From an uncultured Acidimicrobiales bacterium (GTDB lineage: Bacteria > Actinomycetota > Acidimicrobiia > Acidimicrobiales > Aldehydirespiratoraceae), in the NCBI GenBank assembly GCA_958296055.1, contig CATQHS010000001.1, forward strand, positions 124,001 to 188,000: a stretch of DNA of 64,000 nucleotides, written 5' to 3'. Positions 21,016-63,945 of the stretch are shown here, in pieces. A program made the translations under genes and the position numbers. The stretch's first letter is position 1, and the number at the start of each line of letters is the position of its first letter. The notes beneath the pieces were generated by a model. That model was not told where the DNA came from and did not search any database. It worked only from the letters and a program-made list of their open reading frames with translations.

Positions 21016-21048
21016 CCGGGCTCAGATCGGGCAGGCCGGTGGGTGGCA

Positions 21049-21073
21049 CCCGTGACAGGACCCGCCGGCCGGG
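21049..21073. repeat. Dispersed 25-bp repeat, copy A
   Basis: A 25-bp sequence (CCCGTGACAGG plus a CCCGCCGGCC core) between the convergent CMD and ferredoxin genes. An identical copy lies 41 kb away at 62366-62390, with a 17-bp partial copy at 62405. GGGTG-G-CACCC just before it forms a small hairpin, so it could be a terminator-associated repetitive element. Confidence 0.7.
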
Positions 21074-57480: not shown

Positions 57481-59127
57481 ATGCCTTCAGCCCCCGACCC
57501 TGCCCCGGCAGCCTCGGGGCCAGGGCCGGCATCGGGCTCCGGTTCAGCTCGGCGCCACGACTTGGATGCGCTGCGGGGGTTCGCCATGCTGCTGGGGGTC
57601 GGCCTGCACGCCTCGCTGTCCTTCTTTCCCAGCTTCTGGCCGGCGCAGGACTCCACCAGCAACCTGGACGGGCCTTTCGACGAGTTCCTGTGGGCCGTCC
57701 ACGGGTTCCGGATGCCGGTGTTCTTCCTGCTCAGCGGGTTCTTCACCGCCATGCTGTGGCGACGGCGGGGGCTGGGGAGGCTCATGGGGCACCGGGTGCG
57801 CCGGATCGCCCTGCCCCTGGCGGCGGGCATGGTCACCATCGTGCCGCTGGTGGACTGGGTGTCGGAGCGGGCCGTCGACCGGACCGCGGCCGTCGCCGCG
57901 GTGGAACAGGGCGACCTGAGGGGCGCGGTCTTCACCACCGACGCCGACGCGGTGGCCGAGCTGCTCGACCGGGGCATCAGCCCCGACTACCGGCCCGAGT
58001 GGGACCCGAGGGGGTGGACGCCGCTTCACGCCGCGGTGAGTGTCGGGAGCGTCGAGATCATCGAGCTGCTGCTCGACCGGGGGGCCGAGCCCGGCGCCAA
58101 GGCGGTCGAGGTGGGCGCCGACGGCGAGGTGGCCAACGTCTACACCGCGCTGGACTTGGCCGTCTGGTACGGCCAGGCCGAGGTGGCCGACTCGCTGGTG
58201 GCCGGAGGCGCGGCCGATGTCCGCCGGCCCGGCCAGGAGTGGTCCGACCTGGACTGGTGGCGGGAGGGCGCGACCGATGGCGAAGAGGGCGACGACTTCG
58301 CCCTGTCCACCTGGCTGTCCAGCTTCCATCACCTGTGGTTCTTGTGGTTCCTGTGCTGGATGGTGGCCGGGTTCGCGGCGGTGGTCGGGCTGGCCAGGCT
58401 GGCGGGCCGGGCCCGAGGCCGCCCCCGGGCCGGCGCTGGCGACGATGCCAGCAGCGGCGCTGGCGACCCCAGCGGCGGCCCGGGGGCAGCCCGGTCGAGC
58501 CGGTGGTGGCCGTGGCTGCTGGTTCCGGTCACCGTGGTCCCCCAGTTGGCCATGGGCGGCGGCGGGGCCTTCCCGGTGTTCGGCCCCGACACCGCCGCGG
58601 GGCTGTGGCCGCCCGCCCACGTGCTGGCCTACTACGGGCTGTTCTTCGCCTTCGGGGCGCTGATATACGACCGCCGGGACCGGTCGGACCGGCTCCTGAT
58701 CGACACCGTGGGCCGGCACTGGTTCGTGTGGCTGCCGGTGACGGTGTTGGTGATCCTGCCGACGGGGCTCGGGTTCACCTTCACCGAGGGCGGGTCCTGG
58801 CTGGCGGCCTCGGTGGCCCAGGTGGCCTACACGTGGGCCATGTCCTTCGCCCTCATCGGCCTGTTCCGGCAGGTGCTGCCCGCCGAGCGCCGCAGCGTCC
58901 GATACCTGTCAGACGCCTCCTACTGGATCTATCTGGCCCACCTGCCCCTAGTCATCGAGCTGCAGGTGCTGACCCGGGATTGGGACCTGCCCGCCACGGT
59001 GAAGTTCACCGGCCTGTGCCTGGTCGTCACCGCGGTGCTGCTGGCCGCCTATCAGGCCGGGGTGCGCCACACCCCCATCGGCTGGCTCCTAAACGGCCGC
59101 CGCCGCGCCAGTGTCAACAGTCGATAG
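57481..59127 (+). CDS. Acyltransferase-3 membrane protein with inserted ankyrin repeats
   Basis: A 548-residue protein. Residues 28-120 hold the first acyltransferase-3 helices (R-R-H-D-L-D-A-L-R-G-F-A with the motif H, and F-F-L-L-S-G-F-F). Residues about 137-245 carry two to three ankyrin repeats (G-W-T-P-L-H-A-A-V, E-L-L-L-D-R-G-A, T-A-L-D-L-A-V-W-Y-G-Q). The remaining membrane helices follow (Y-W-I-Y-L-A-H-L-P). Acyltransferase-3 proteins O-acylate cell-wall or exported glycans; the ankyrin insert is not usual and should lie in a loop. Confidence 0.82.
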   Translation: MPSAPDPAPAASGPGPASGSGSARRHDLDALRGFAMLLGVGLHASLSFFPSFWPAQDSTSNLDGPFDEFLWAVHGFRMPVFFLLSGFFTAMLWRRRGLGRLMGHRVRRIALPLAAGMVTIVPLVDWVSERAVDRTAAVAAVEQGDLRGAVFTTDADAVAELLDRGISPDYRPEWDPRGWTPLHAAVSVGSVEIIELLLDRGAEPGAKAVEVGADGEVANVYTALDLAVWYGQAEVADSLVAGGAADVRRPGQEWSDLDWWREGATDGEEGDDFALSTWLSSFHHLWFLWFLCWMVAGFAAVVGLARLAGRARGRPRAGAGDDASSGAGDPSGGPGAARSSRWWPWLLVPVTVVPQLAMGGGGAFPVFGPDTAAGLWPPAHVLAYYGLFFAFGALIYDRRDRSDRLLIDTVGRHWFVWLPVTVLVILPTGLGFTFTEGGSWLAASVAQVAYTWAMSFALIGLFRQVLPAERRSVRYLSDASYWIYLAHLPLVIELQVLTRDWDLPATVKFTGLCLVVTAVLLAAYQAGVRHTPIGWLLNGRRRASVNSR

Positions 59128-59150: not shown

Positions 59151-61517
59151 TCACCACGGCTCTTCGAGGATTGACTCGCGGAGCGAAGCCATGGCGACGG
59201 CATTCTCAGCGGCCTCCTCAGTGGCGCTTAGAGGAATTCGCCGGTAGCCCTCGACGATGGAGTGATCGATTGTTTTGCGGTCTTCTAGTTCGGTGAGGAG
59301 GCGGGTTAGCAGGGGGTTGCCCCAGGTCAACAGGCTGAGGCCGTCGGCGGAGTCGTAGCGGCGGGGGTCGAAGGTGACCGGGTGCTTGCCGTCGGCCAGC
59401 TCCAGCAGCCAGGCATCGGCCCAGCCGTGGGGGTGGTCGCCAAACCGGGCCCGGGCGGCGTCGATCCCGAACAGCCGGTCCCGCAGCCCAGTCAGGGTCA
59501 TGGCCGGGTCCAGCTCGGACGAGTGGACCGGCACCCGGTCCAGGGCGGCGGGGCGCAGCGGGGCGGCGGCCAGGCGCTCCATGCCCGCCTCGAGTTCGTC
59601 GAGCACCTCGCCCTCGTTCCTCTCCCCGAGCACGCAGTCGGCGATGACGTGCTCGGACAACACCGGGGCGGCCGGGCCGAGCACGGCCCCGAACCGCTGG
59701 TGGCACTCGGTGATCCGCCGGAAGATGCGCTCCTCGATGGTGTCGGCGTACATGAGGTTGGCGACGCGCACCGCGGGCTGCCCGCCGATGCGGTCCACCC
59801 GGCCGATGCGCTGCTCCACCCGGGTGAAGTTCCAGGGCAGGTCGAAGTTCACCAGCCAGTCCGAGGCCTGCAGGTTGAGGCCTTCGGACATGGAGTCGGT
59901 GCCGATCATGATGCTGATGGCGCCGGGGGCCCGGAACCGGGCCTTGACCTGCTCCTTGCCGATCCGGTCCCAGCCGCCGAGGCGGTCGTCCCAGCGCTCG
60001 CCCCGACCGCCGTAGTAGCAGACCAGCACGTCGCGCCATCCCTCCAGGGCGTCGCGGATGAACCGCAGGGTGTCGGTGTACTGGGTGAAGACCACCAGCT
60101 TGGTGTGCCCGTCCTCGACCGCCTCCCGGATGAGGGTGTGCAGGGCGGCCATCTTGGGCTCGCGGTCGTCTAGTTCGGTGAGCCGGTCGAGCGCGCCCAG
60201 GATCCGGTCGAGTTCGGCCACCTCCTCGGCCACCACCTTCCGCACCGAGGCCGCCTCGGCCGCGGCCACCGCGGGGGCGAAGCTCTCGGGGATGTCGCCG
60301 TCGACGGCCTCGTCGTCCTCGTCGAACAGCCCCTCGACGCCTAGGCCGGCGCCGGGGCCCGAGCCGGCCCGCCCGCTCATCGCCGCGGTCAGCGCCTCGC
60401 GCCGGCGTTCCAGCGAGCAGCGCACGGCGTGGAACGACGAGGTGAGCCGACGGCGGTAGACGGCCATGATCCACCCCACCGGCACCGCCCGCTTCTTGCC
60501 CAGCACCCGCTTGTACTTGGCGTAGGTGTGGCGCACGTAGTCGTCGATGGCGTCGTAGAGGCTCCGGGCCGGTCCCTCCAGCGTCAGGGCCTTGTCGGAG
60601 ATGGCGCGCTCGGGGATGACGGTGGCCGGGTCGAGCTCCCCGGTGTCGCGGTAGCCGCGCAGGGTCCGCCGGGTGGTGCGGAACACCCGGTCGGCCACCG
60701 GGGTGGACGCCCCCAGCCACTTGTCCCAAGCGGCTCGGGCGCCGTCGTCCCTCTGGGCCGCCTCCCGGTTGGTCCAGCCGGTCTGGGCGAAGCCGGTGAT
60801 CCGGCTGACCTCCACCGCCCCGATCCCGCTGTCGGCCAGCCCGGCCCGCACGCCGGGATCGACGGTGCATTTCTGCTCGAATCCCTCCACCATGCGGCGC
60901 AGCCGCTCCCAGTTGCGCCGGTCGAATCCCTCGGCCAGTTCCGAGAAGTAGCCCTCCAGGTCCTCCAGGCGGCGCCACTGCGGCGGCAGGCCCATCAGGT
61001 CGAGCAGGTCGAACAGGTCGAGGGCGTGCATCTGCATGGGCGTGGCCGACGCGGCCAGAAGCATCCGCCATTTGCCGCGGGCTCGCATGGCCTGCAGGAG
61101 CCCCAGCATCCGGTTGGGCCGGGCGTTCGGGTGGCCGGCCGGGGAGCGGCGGGCGTGGTGGGCCTCGTCGACCACCACCACGTCCCATCCGGGGGCTTCC
61201 AGCAGGTCGTCTTGCTGGTCTTGGCGGCGGGCCAGGTGCGACGACGCCAGCAGCAGCTTCGAGGAGTGCCAGACGTTGCCGGCTATGGGCATGACCGACC
61301 CGTCGGGCCAGGCCAGCACCCGGTTGGCCCGGTCGAGGCGGGGCACCTCCAGCAGCAGCTTCTCGGCCAACTCCTCTTGCCATTGGATCATCACCGACGC
61401 CGGCACCAGCACCAGCGCGGTGGAGGCCCGGCCCGACAGCAGCAGCTCCCGCAGGGCCAGGCCGATCTCGATGGTCTTGCCCAGCCCCACCTCGTCGGCC
61501 AGCAGGTGCGATTTGCC
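59151..61517 (-). pseudogene. SNF2-family helicase, 5'-truncated (DISARM/Hma-type)
   Basis: About 789 codons of a superfamily-2 helicase. The frame enters at G-K-S-H-L-L-A-D-E-V-G-L-G-K-T, the Walker A of SNF2 helicases, which normally lies hundreds of residues from the N-terminus. D-E-A-H-H, S-A-T-P-M-Q, the C-terminal T-D-S-M-S-E-G-L-N-L-Q and R-I-G-R-V-D-R are intact. Any start at the GTG in the V-G-L-G-K-T motif would be artificial. Beyond 61517 the sequence becomes a different gene on the opposite strand, so the front is missing. Confidence 0.8.
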
Positions 61518-62424
61518 TGGCCGAGTTGCGCAGCGCCGCGGTCGGGGCGAAGCGGGTGCGGGCGGCGGTGGACGCCTTAGAAGCCCGGCTGTTGACCCTG
61601 ATCGCAGACCGGACCTTCGACCCCGCCGCGGGCATCGAGCTGCTGCGCGACTCTGGGGGCTGTTCTCAGCGCGAGGCCCGCCGACGGCTGCACCGAGCCG
61701 AGGTTTTGGACCAGATGCCCGCGGTGGCCGGCGCCCTGGCCGAGGGCGACATCACCGCCGAACACGCCGACGCCCTGGTGCAAGCCGCCCGGGCGACCTC
61801 GGCCGAGACGGTGGACACCGACACGGCCTTGCTGGACCGGGCCAAGGAACTGCCCGCCGATCTGGCCGCCCGGGAGGTCACCGACTGGACCAGCCGCCAC
61901 CAGACGATGGCGGACCGCGAGGCCAAGTTCCGCCGCCAGCGGGCCATGCGCAGCCACCGGGCCTGGTCCGACGCCGAAGGCATGGTCAACTTCCGCACTC
62001 GCTTGGACCCCGTCACCGGCGCCCAAGCCCGGGCCATCATCGACGACATCGCCAACCGCCTCTACCGAGCCGACGGCGGCCGAAACGCCAAACCCGACCA
62101 AACCCGCACCTGGGACCAGCACAACGCCGACGCCCTAACCGCCGCCCTAGGAATAACCCCCACCCACGCCCCGAACCCCGACAATGGAGCTGGCAGCAAC
62201 CCCTCACCTCGCCGCCGAGCCAGTGAGCAAGAACTCAACCACGGGCCCGTCTCCGACAGCCGCGCCAACACGGCCGGTGAGCAAGAGCCTGGGCCGGAGC
62301 CCGGTGCGCCAGGCCGGGGGGTGGCACGGGGGTCAGCGTCGTCGCCGCTCGCGGCGACGACCGCCCCCGTGACAGGACCCGCCGGCCGGGACACCCCGCA
62401 ACCGCCCGTGACAGGACCCGCGGC
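61514..62424 (+). pseudogene. DUF222-type HNH protein fragment
   Basis: The frame opens as C-L-A-E-L-R-S-A-A-V-G-A-K-R-V-R without a start and continues with S-Q-R-E-A-R-R-R-L, G-D-I-T-A-E-H-A-D-A-L and V-T-G-A-Q-A-R-A-I-I-D-D, the DUF222 domain of actinobacterial HNH proteins. It then decays into a Pro/Gly-rich stretch with a repeated P-V-T-G-P and never reaches an HNH domain. Both ends are therefore lost. TTG at 61526 is not a convincing start. It probably moved with mobile DNA. Confidence 0.7.
62366..62421. repeat. Dispersed 25-bp repeat, copies B and C
   Basis: 62366-62390 is identical to the 25-bp element at 21049; 62405-62421 is a 17-bp partial copy. They lie in the junction between the DUF222 and DUF499 fragments, so recombination between such copies may have made the join. 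Confidence 0.7.
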
Positions 62425-62426
62425 AG

Positions 62427-63125
62427 TGTCCCATCAAGTGCGACACGCTCAACCTCGACAACTTCCAGGTCCGCCAGATCGCGGGCAAGCTGAAGGAGTC
62501 GCACAAGACCGTCGACGACCGGGTGGCCGAGACCTACCAGTGGGTGCTCAACCCGAACCAGTCCATAGACAACCCCACCGGGCCGGTCCGCTGGGACGCC
62601 ATCCGGGTTTCGGGCTTGGGGACGCTGGCCGAGCGGGTGGCGGAGAAGCTGAAGGGCGAGGAGGCGCTGATCCCGGCCTATTCCGGCACCCGGCTGCGCC
62701 TCGACATCGACCGCATTCCGCTGTGGCGGGGCGACCACGTGGGGATCGATCAGTTGTGGGACGACTACACGCAGTACCTGTACCTGCCCCGCCTGGTGAA
62801 GCGCTCGGTGCTGGAGGAGGCGGTCCGGGACGGGGTGCTGGCGCTTACGTGGGAGACGGACGGCTTCGCCTATGCCGACGGCCACGACGGCGAGCGGTAC
62901 GTGGGGCTCAGGGCGTACGAACAGCTCGCCGCGGTCGCTCCGAGCGGGCTGTTGGTCAATCCCGTTGCGGCGGTTGCGCAGCGCTCGGCCGAGCGTCCTG
63001 CGGCCGCTCCGGGCTCGCCCGGGGATGGGGATCGGACCGAGCCGGGGGACCAGGGTCCCTTGCCCGTTCCGAGTTCAGGGGGCGCTCTAGTGGAATATAA
63101 CAAAATAGCGCATCTGTCTTCGTAG
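62427..63125 (+). pseudogene. DUF499 ATPase fragment (C-terminal region)
   Basis: About 232 codons matching the late part of DUF499 anti-phage-associated ATPases: T-Y-Q-W-V-L-N-P-N-Q, V-R-W-D-A-I-R-V-S-G, I-P-L-W-R-G-D-H-V and Y-L-Y-L-P-R-L. The frame opens at T-L-N-L-D-N-F-Q without a plausible start, so the ATPase core is missing. After L-L-V-N-P it drifts into unrelated sequence to TAG at 63123. Intact homologues run to about 1000 residues. Confidence 0.7.
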
Positions 63126-63150
63126 CCGCGGCATCCCGGCCCCGGACCAG

Positions 63151-63171
63151 GCGTTCCACATCGTGGAACGC
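63151..63171. promoter_or_regulatory. Perfect palindrome, IclR-type operator
   Basis: GCGTTCCAC and GTGGAACGC form perfect 9-bp arms around ATC. It is centred 41 bp before the ATG of the second IclR gene, at the -35 region of its leaderless promoter, as expected for autorepression. Confidence 0.7.
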
Positions 63172-63189
63172 CCGCCGGAGGTTCGCCGG

Positions 63190-63195
63190 TAGGCT
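63190..63195 (+). promoter_or_regulatory. Leaderless -10 element of the second IclR gene
   Basis: TAGGCT ends 6 nt before the ATG at 63202, identical in sequence and spacing to the element before the AbiEi-like gene. Confidence 0.6.
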
Positions 63196-63201
63196 GAGCG
63201 C

Positions 63202-63945
63202 ATGTCGATCCAGACCATCGAGCGGGCCTTCGCACTGCTGCGGACGCTGGCCCTAGGACCGGTGGGGGTAACCGAGCTGGCCGAGCGGGTCGAGTTGCCC
63301 AAGAGCACCGTGGCCCGACTGCTGGCCGCTCTGGAAGCCGAGAACGCGGTCGAGCAGATAGAGAGCGGGGGCGGGTACCGGCTCGGCCCCGGCTTGGTCG
63401 ACATCGCCGGCGGCGCCCAGCCCGGCCGCAACCTCATCGCCTCGGCCCGGCCCCACCTGCTGGAGCTGGCCGAGAAAACCGACGAGGTGGCCGGGCTGTC
63501 GATCATCGACGACGGCCAAGTCCTGTACCTCGACCAGACCGAGTCGTCGTCCAGCGTGCAAGTGAGGGACTGGTCCGGCGAGTACGCGCCGCTGCACGCC
63601 GTGGCGGCGGGGCTGGTGATGCTGGCCCACATGCCCGACGACGAGATCGAGGGCTACCTAGCCAAGCCGCTGCCCAAGTGCACCGACCTCACCATGACCG
63701 ACCCCGACGACCTGTTGGAGCGGCTGGAGCACGTCCGCCACCTCGGCTACGCCTGGAGTTACGAGGAGTTCGCCGAGGGCCTCAACTCGGTGGCCGCGCC
63801 CATCGTCATGCCCGACGGCCGGGTGGAGTCGGCCTTGCACGTCCACGGCCCGGCCTACCGCTTCCCCGACCCCGACCAGGCCCACGACCACGGCCTGGCC
63901 GTGATTGAAGCCGCCGCCCGCCTGGCCGAACAACTCGCCGACTGA
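63202..63945 (+). CDS. IclR family transcriptional regulator
   Basis: A 247-residue regulator. The winged helix has G-V-T-E-L-A-E-R-V-E-L-P-K-S-T-V-A-R-L-L-A-A-L at about residues 22-44. The effector domain shows L-Y-L-D-Q-T-E-S, A-P-L-H-A-V-A-A-G and S-V-A-A-P-I. It differs from the IclR at 55 kb mainly in the effector domain. Its target genes probably lie beyond the right edge. The last 55 bases of the window after its stop show no gene. Confidence 0.92.
   Translation: MSIQTIERAFALLRTLALGPVGVTELAERVELPKSTVARLLAALEAENAVEQIESGGGYRLGPGLVDIAGGAQPGRNLIASARPHLLELAEKTDEVAGLSIIDDGQVLYLDQTESSSSVQVRDWSGEYAPLHAVAAGLVMLAHMPDDEIEGYLAKPLPKCTDLTMTDPDDLLERLEHVRHLGYAWSYEEFAEGLNSVAAPIVMPDGRVESALHVHGPAYRFPDPDQAHDHGLAVIEAAARLAEQLAD

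Follow-up and report, generated by a model that had tools for sequence, protein, structure and literature searches.

Gene fragments and junctions at the locus

The window, i.e. the whole stretch of DNA that was analysed (64,000 nucleotides, C1:124001-188000), contains a series of abutting gene fragments near its right-hand end. From left to right, these are a helicase pseudogene on the minus strand (59151..61511), a fragment of a DUF222 gene on the plus strand (61515..62421), a filler of 18 bp (62422..62439) and an internal fragment of the gene for the DUF499 ATPase HmaC (62440..63085, plus strand), followed by an intact IclR regulator gene (63202..63945, plus strand). To the left of the helicase lies an ORF for an acyltransferase-3-like membrane protein (57481..59127), in which apparent ankyrin-like repeats (PEWDPRGWTPLHAAVSVGSVEIIELLLDRGAEPG) were observed mid-protein. 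An earlier note on this DNA had placed a DUF222 fragment, on the opposite strand to the helicase, and a DUF499 fragment here. Both are real, with matches far above chance to PF02720 (E=1.3e-14) and HmaC (E=7.3e-36), as is the match of the helicase piece to Helicase_C (E=4.4e-14).

The pieces had been said to abut at 61511-61517 and near 62424, and the limits of homology (61511/61515 and ~62421/62440) agree with this within a few bases. At the first junction (J1, 61512..61514), the helicase alignment stops at 61511 and the other DUF222 copies begin at 61515, and the two sides show no mutual homology. At the second (J2, 62422..62439), homology to DUF222 and its repeat reaches ~62421 and homology to HmaC starts at 62440; the 18 bp in between have no counterpart in the sister DUF222 proteins at that point, nor in HmaC. 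The limits of homology reveal a third break that had not been named before (J3, 63086..63153), where 68 bp separate the HmaC fragment from the upstream region of the IclR gene. Here, HmaC homology ends at 63085, before the end of the HmaC gene, and the gene located downstream of HmaC in the intact island is missing. Every piece is cut at its own place in its own gene, and homology reaches right up to the junction.

A frame that is open across the junction (61526-63100, 524 aa) might be taken for a functional new fusion protein. We give this reading next to no credence, as the joined ORF crosses the HmaC part out of frame, so that its second half does not encode HmaC sequence, and stops are rare in DNA of 70% G+C. 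Another explanation would be an assembly error in which distant pieces were joined via the repeated DUF222 sequence and the palindrome it carries (HP, see below). Both are multi-copy, which is the usual source of false joins, and the genome is perhaps metagenome-derived (completeness 95%, contamination 1.7%). However, the main contig covers 3.27 Mb of the 3.3 Mb genome, and a false join would pass through the shared repeat, whereas both junction flanks are unlike any other DUF222 copy. In addition, the window DUF222 copy is at most ~89% identical to its sister copies, and the HmaC fragment differs from the intact gene at 23 sites. Since both junctions lie outside shared sequence and no piece is identical to its nearest copy, a misassembly seems very unlikely. 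Homologous recombination between DUF222 copies as the origin of J1 or J2 was likewise rejected, as no shared sequence is found at the junctions.

Remnants of two defence systems

In the helicase piece, the Pfam domains SNF2-rel_dom (from profile position 21) and Helicase_C were detected. Its residue 1 corresponds to residue 326 of a relative from genome G011 that has 1052 residues (47% identity), so that ~325 front residues are gone; that the front is lacking had been noted before. Intact relatives are 1050-1170 aa long and those of the sister genus carry a PLD-like front; this PLD domain is absent from the window. Immediately upstream of the G011 relative lies a DUF1156-type methylase gene. 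The family NF042964 (PLD anti-phage protein) combines a PLD-like N-terminal domain with an SNF2 helicase; the window helicase has lost the former with its front and scored 232 bits against a cut-off of 1100, aligned from profile position 253. With DISARM DrmD it reached 236 bits, also below the cut-off (610). A search of its own genome with the remaining part as query revealed no closer helicase, only more distant ones with ~34% identity or lower over longer alignments.

The DUF499 piece was assigned to HmaC by PADLOC (profile positions 637-822 of 941) and comprises residues ~804-1019 of 1108. The Hma defence system, consisting of the helicase HmaA, the methylase HmaB and the ATPase HmaC, goes back to a proposal in PMC8565338; PMC12839542 treats it as one of the BREX-related DUF499 systems. 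Over 646 bp, the fragment can be aligned without gaps to an intact HmaC gene at C1 3,010,636-3,011,281 (96.4% identity). This gene belongs to a complete Hma system at a distance of about 450 kb (C1 ~3.010-3.027 Mb), in which HmaA, HmaB and HmaC occur together (1478, 1003 and 1023 bits, respectively), along with a second HmaB and a Swt1-like HEPN fused to DUF499. In the window, this combination is absent. The 23 substitutions between the two HmaC copies change 22 codons, 14 of them nonsynonymously, and the resulting values (dN 0.030, dS 0.056) are compatible with one copy being relaxed. The fragment is an extra copy of HmaC and not a lost part of the helicase's system. The helicase of the intact Hma system is of another kind than that in the window. 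As the intact HmaC sits in a complete system with this other helicase, the window joins remnants of two systems.

These results bear on how the locus had been read in the earlier note, namely as a broken defence island related to Hma-like systems with the methylase and ATPase cores missing. This much holds: truncated remnants of a PLD-SNF2 helicase and of HmaC are present, an intact Hma is found elsewhere in the genome, and a search for the partner genes of both systems detected no further part of either an Hma or a PLD-type system in the window. The idea that helicase and DUF499 protein formed one system has to be given up, since the former is of the PLD-SNF2 type, with a relative next to a DUF1156-type methylase, and the latter is the HmaC of Hma. 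Nor do the data favour parts scattered by a shattering of the island, given that the HmaC piece is a duplicate that differs from the intact gene and that the genome's helicase matches are only more distant ones. The search for missing parts that had been suggested was thus successful for HmaC, for which the intact gene was found, and yielded only distant relatives for the helicase.

The surroundings of HmaC are also shared between the two places. Both in the window and in the intact Hma locus, HmaC is followed by an IclR start, and these starts are 83% identical over 112 bp (window 63154-63265, locus L018 5470-5581); a third copy was not found elsewhere in the genome. The duplicated stretch comprises the first ~20 codons and an operator-like palindrome. 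In the intact island, a 247-codon gene lies between HmaC and the IclR start, and this gene is gone in the window. It has no Pfam match; by eye it looks like a HEPN candidate. Because the IclR starts share 83% identity and the HmaC pieces 96.4%, a single duplication reaching from HmaC to IclR would need extra steps.

Taken together, we consider it likely that the region is an eroded defence island left by three deletions in an ancestral island. In the ancestor, the acyltransferase and IclR genes would have flanked three elements: a minus-strand PLD-SNF2 helicase system, a plus-strand DUF222-HNH gene and, ahead of IclR, a second Hma copy with HmaC and the small gene following it, also on the plus strand. 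Three deletions without long homology would then have made the junctions. As helicase and DUF222 gene stand head to head, one deletion can remove both starts, and the J1 deletion would have taken the helicase front, anything upstream of it and the start of the DUF222 gene. For the collinear DUF222 and HmaC genes, a single deletion can likewise account for both losses; the J2 deletion would have taken the HNH half of the DUF222 gene and the HmaC front, leaving the 18 bp filler. Filler of this kind is often left by end joining. The J3 deletion would have taken the HmaC tail together with the small gene that followed. We infer deletions rather than translocations as the cause of the joins, and likewise their order; starting from an island with intact genes, this would be the simplest route. 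With no PLD domain, no ATPase core and no methylase, the remains no longer form a working defence system. The site brings together remnants of two related defence systems, and an intact copy of one of them persists elsewhere.

A repeated DUF222-HNH gene and its palindrome

The DUF222 piece matched PF02720 with 54.7 bits (gathering cut-off 24.4). It lacks ~18 N-terminal codons and the C-terminal HNH domain, both of which are present in sister copies. The genome has ~30 DUF222 genes, the highest number among 51 genomes of the family, and the window piece is a copy of this repeated DUF222-HNH gene and no defence gene, so its earlier placement as a piece of the island does not apply. Two types can be told apart. 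In A-type genes (about ten and the window copy), a variable linker connects the DUF222 part with the HNH part; the roughly fifteen B-type genes encode proteins with 65-83% identity to a reference copy. No convincing PDB relative of DUF222-HNH was found (best E 0.31). In M. tuberculosis, REP13E12 (DUF222) genes are known as conversion hot spots without a defined function (PMC13061034).

Within the linker of the window copy, an 83-bp REPIN-like palindrome, HP, lies in frame (62307..62389, plus strand), followed by a partial second copy of its right-hand motif (CCCGTGACAGGACCCGC, 62405..62421), which is cut by J2. Counted from search hits, HP occurs in ~42 copies in this genome. Its termini are almost invariant (GGCCGGGGGGTGGCACGGGGG ... 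CCCGTGACAGGACCCGCCGGCCGG) and flank a variable stem. In an alignment of 40 distinct copies, 96.3% of the cells are paired, and the covariation score of 0.116 lay above all controls, i.e. 500 shuffles (0.062 +/- 0.005) and slid alignments (<=0.037). Folded as single-stranded DNA, three copies gave z-scores of -5.3 to -6.8. HP therefore has the make-up of a REPIN as defined in PMC3116915: two inverted REP-type motifs with a spacer, forming one hairpin and present in many copies. Of ~85,000 genomes, only MAGs of Acidimicrobiia/Actinomycetota contained the exact motif. A remnant with the termini alone (GGCCGGTGGGTGGCAC and CCGTGACAGGACCCGCCGGCC), its inner hairpin deleted, is seen at 21034..21072 (plus strand) of the window. 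Short arrays of the right-hand motif with ~30-bp spacers also occur outside HPs near B-type genes (L018 2427-2700 and 4375-4450; flanks of L024, L027 and L029).

HP does not correspond to a known RNA family: ten HP loci were compared with Rfam up to E=1, and the sole match was the unrelated PYLIS_3. This pyrrolysine insertion element of mttB lies at L040 2011-2110 (56.1 bits, cut-off 38), by an old HP copy of this actinobacterial genome. A RAYT as the mover of HP was also discarded, as no match to PF01797 was found in this genome and 16 genomes of the sister genus, with control genomes positive.

HP is strongly linked to DUF222 genes in this genome. Of the 42 HPs, 28 lie in a DUF222 gene or no more than 350 bp from one, compared with an expectation of 0.8 and a maximum of 8 in 2000 random draws. 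HP is inserted in frame before the HNH part in six A-type genes, including the window copy, and is absent from four, indicating that HP comes and goes. At B-type genes, all HPs point outward (8 of 8 upstream and 11 of 11 downstream), and four such genes have HP on both sides. The palindromes are thus inverted around the nuclease gene in 19 of 19 cases, as in a REPtron; the HP-flanked copies share descent, so these are not 19 independent events. Most HPs close to DUF222 genes share 93-98% identity with the window HP, and the flanked B-type genes are far less alike. This suggests that HPs have a more recent history of spread or homogenisation than the genes, or that they are under stronger constraint. 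Between relA and hisS, the genome has a B-type gene with HP on each side. In ten relatives from four genera, relA and hisS are adjacent, separated by about 60-400 bp without DUF222, so the DUF222-HP unit was most likely inserted there.

This raises the possibility that a mobile DUF222-HP element also jumped into the island and broke its neighbours by insertion. The extra DNA at relA/hisS and the HP copies found within ORFs would fit. On the other hand, the window DUF222 copy is itself truncated at both ends, and its flanks are not halves of one target but derive from two unrelated genes, each lacking a different part, which makes an insertion quite improbable. We also considered that HNH-made breaks at right-hand motifs of HP might drive rearrangements, with J2 as a putative healed DUF222-HNH cut. 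J2 falls within the second right-hand motif, the HP of L037 is cut at a similar place, a B-type gene fragment of L036 ends at the edge of an HP, and other DUF222 copies retain the HNH domain. Two or three such cases are anecdotal, however, and J1 and J3 lie away from these motifs. We therefore regard this explanation as unlikely. The breakpoint itself is most likely the result of ordinary island decay.

Outside this genus, the linkage was not observed. None of 30 HP loci in the sister genus lies beside a DUF222 gene, and the HP motif is absent from 40 DUF222 loci in six genomes, which represent four genera including the sister genus. Around the DUF222 genes of these six genomes no shared inverted repeats were detected, conservation being limited to short stretches upstream and to the ends of genes. 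A general rule linking DUF222 and HP is thus rejected, and the linkage may be a peculiarity of a single genus. HP may then insert preferentially near DUF222 genes or hitch-hike on their duplication. In the sister genus, HP sites lie between genes and inside nuoG. At the nuoG site (L227-L243; L103, L113), where HP is in frame, three sister-genus genomes are empty and three carry one inner stem. In nine others, the same termini enclose a second, different stem, and in one genome the inner stem is lost; the two inner palindromes belong to different species. These variants suggest that the middle was swapped by conversion or that insertion occurred repeatedly at one place.

The arrangement of HP and DUF222-HNH has the anatomy of a REPtron in which the HNH gene replaces the RAYT. 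HP may represent a new sort of bacterial mobile DNA. We put forward, as a rather doubtful option, that DUF222-HNH, a large actinobacterial protein family, could be the mobiliser of REPIN-like palindromes, the gene and two outward hairpins forming a REPtron-like unit in this lineage. If this nuclease does move hairpins, a role would be given to the DUF222/13E12 genes, with consequences for the question raised in PMC3733652 of how REP families spread when they have no dedicated transposase. No link between DUF222 or HNH genes and REPINs was found in the open-licence papers searched.

Comparison with known systems

The window helicase resembles the helicase of the anti-phage set of PLD-helicase, DUF1156 and DUF499 proteins (NCBIfam NF042962-NF042964, PADLOC PLD_Helicase) from SNF2 motif I on, and its relatives have a PLD-like front, one of them with a DUF1156-type neighbour. 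It differs from this set by lacking the front and by a score far below the curated cut-off. The fragment at 62440-63085 is HmaC and a complete Hma system is present in the same genome, yet the window has only an internal piece and a helicase of another type.

As in the REP13E12 / DUF222-HNH genes of actinobacteria, the DUF222 genes described here are multi-copy and chromosome-wide. In contrast to REP13E12, many copies have the 83-bp palindrome in frame, or alongside and pointing outward. Rickettsia palindromic elements insert in frame into protein genes, a property shared with HP, whereas sequence and lineage are unrelated. Some of these elements are CGTC REPs, a type without a dedicated transposase (PMC3733652). 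In structure, HP resembles REPINs and REPtrons (PMC3116915, PMC2817692, PMC3733652). In these, no less than in HP, short inverted motifs form a hairpin that is present in many copies, some of them in genes. HP differs in that no RAYT was found, its consensus has no GTAG tag and the flanked gene is DUF222-HNH; the REPtron layout, with a nuclease gene between palindromes in inverted orientation, is common to both.
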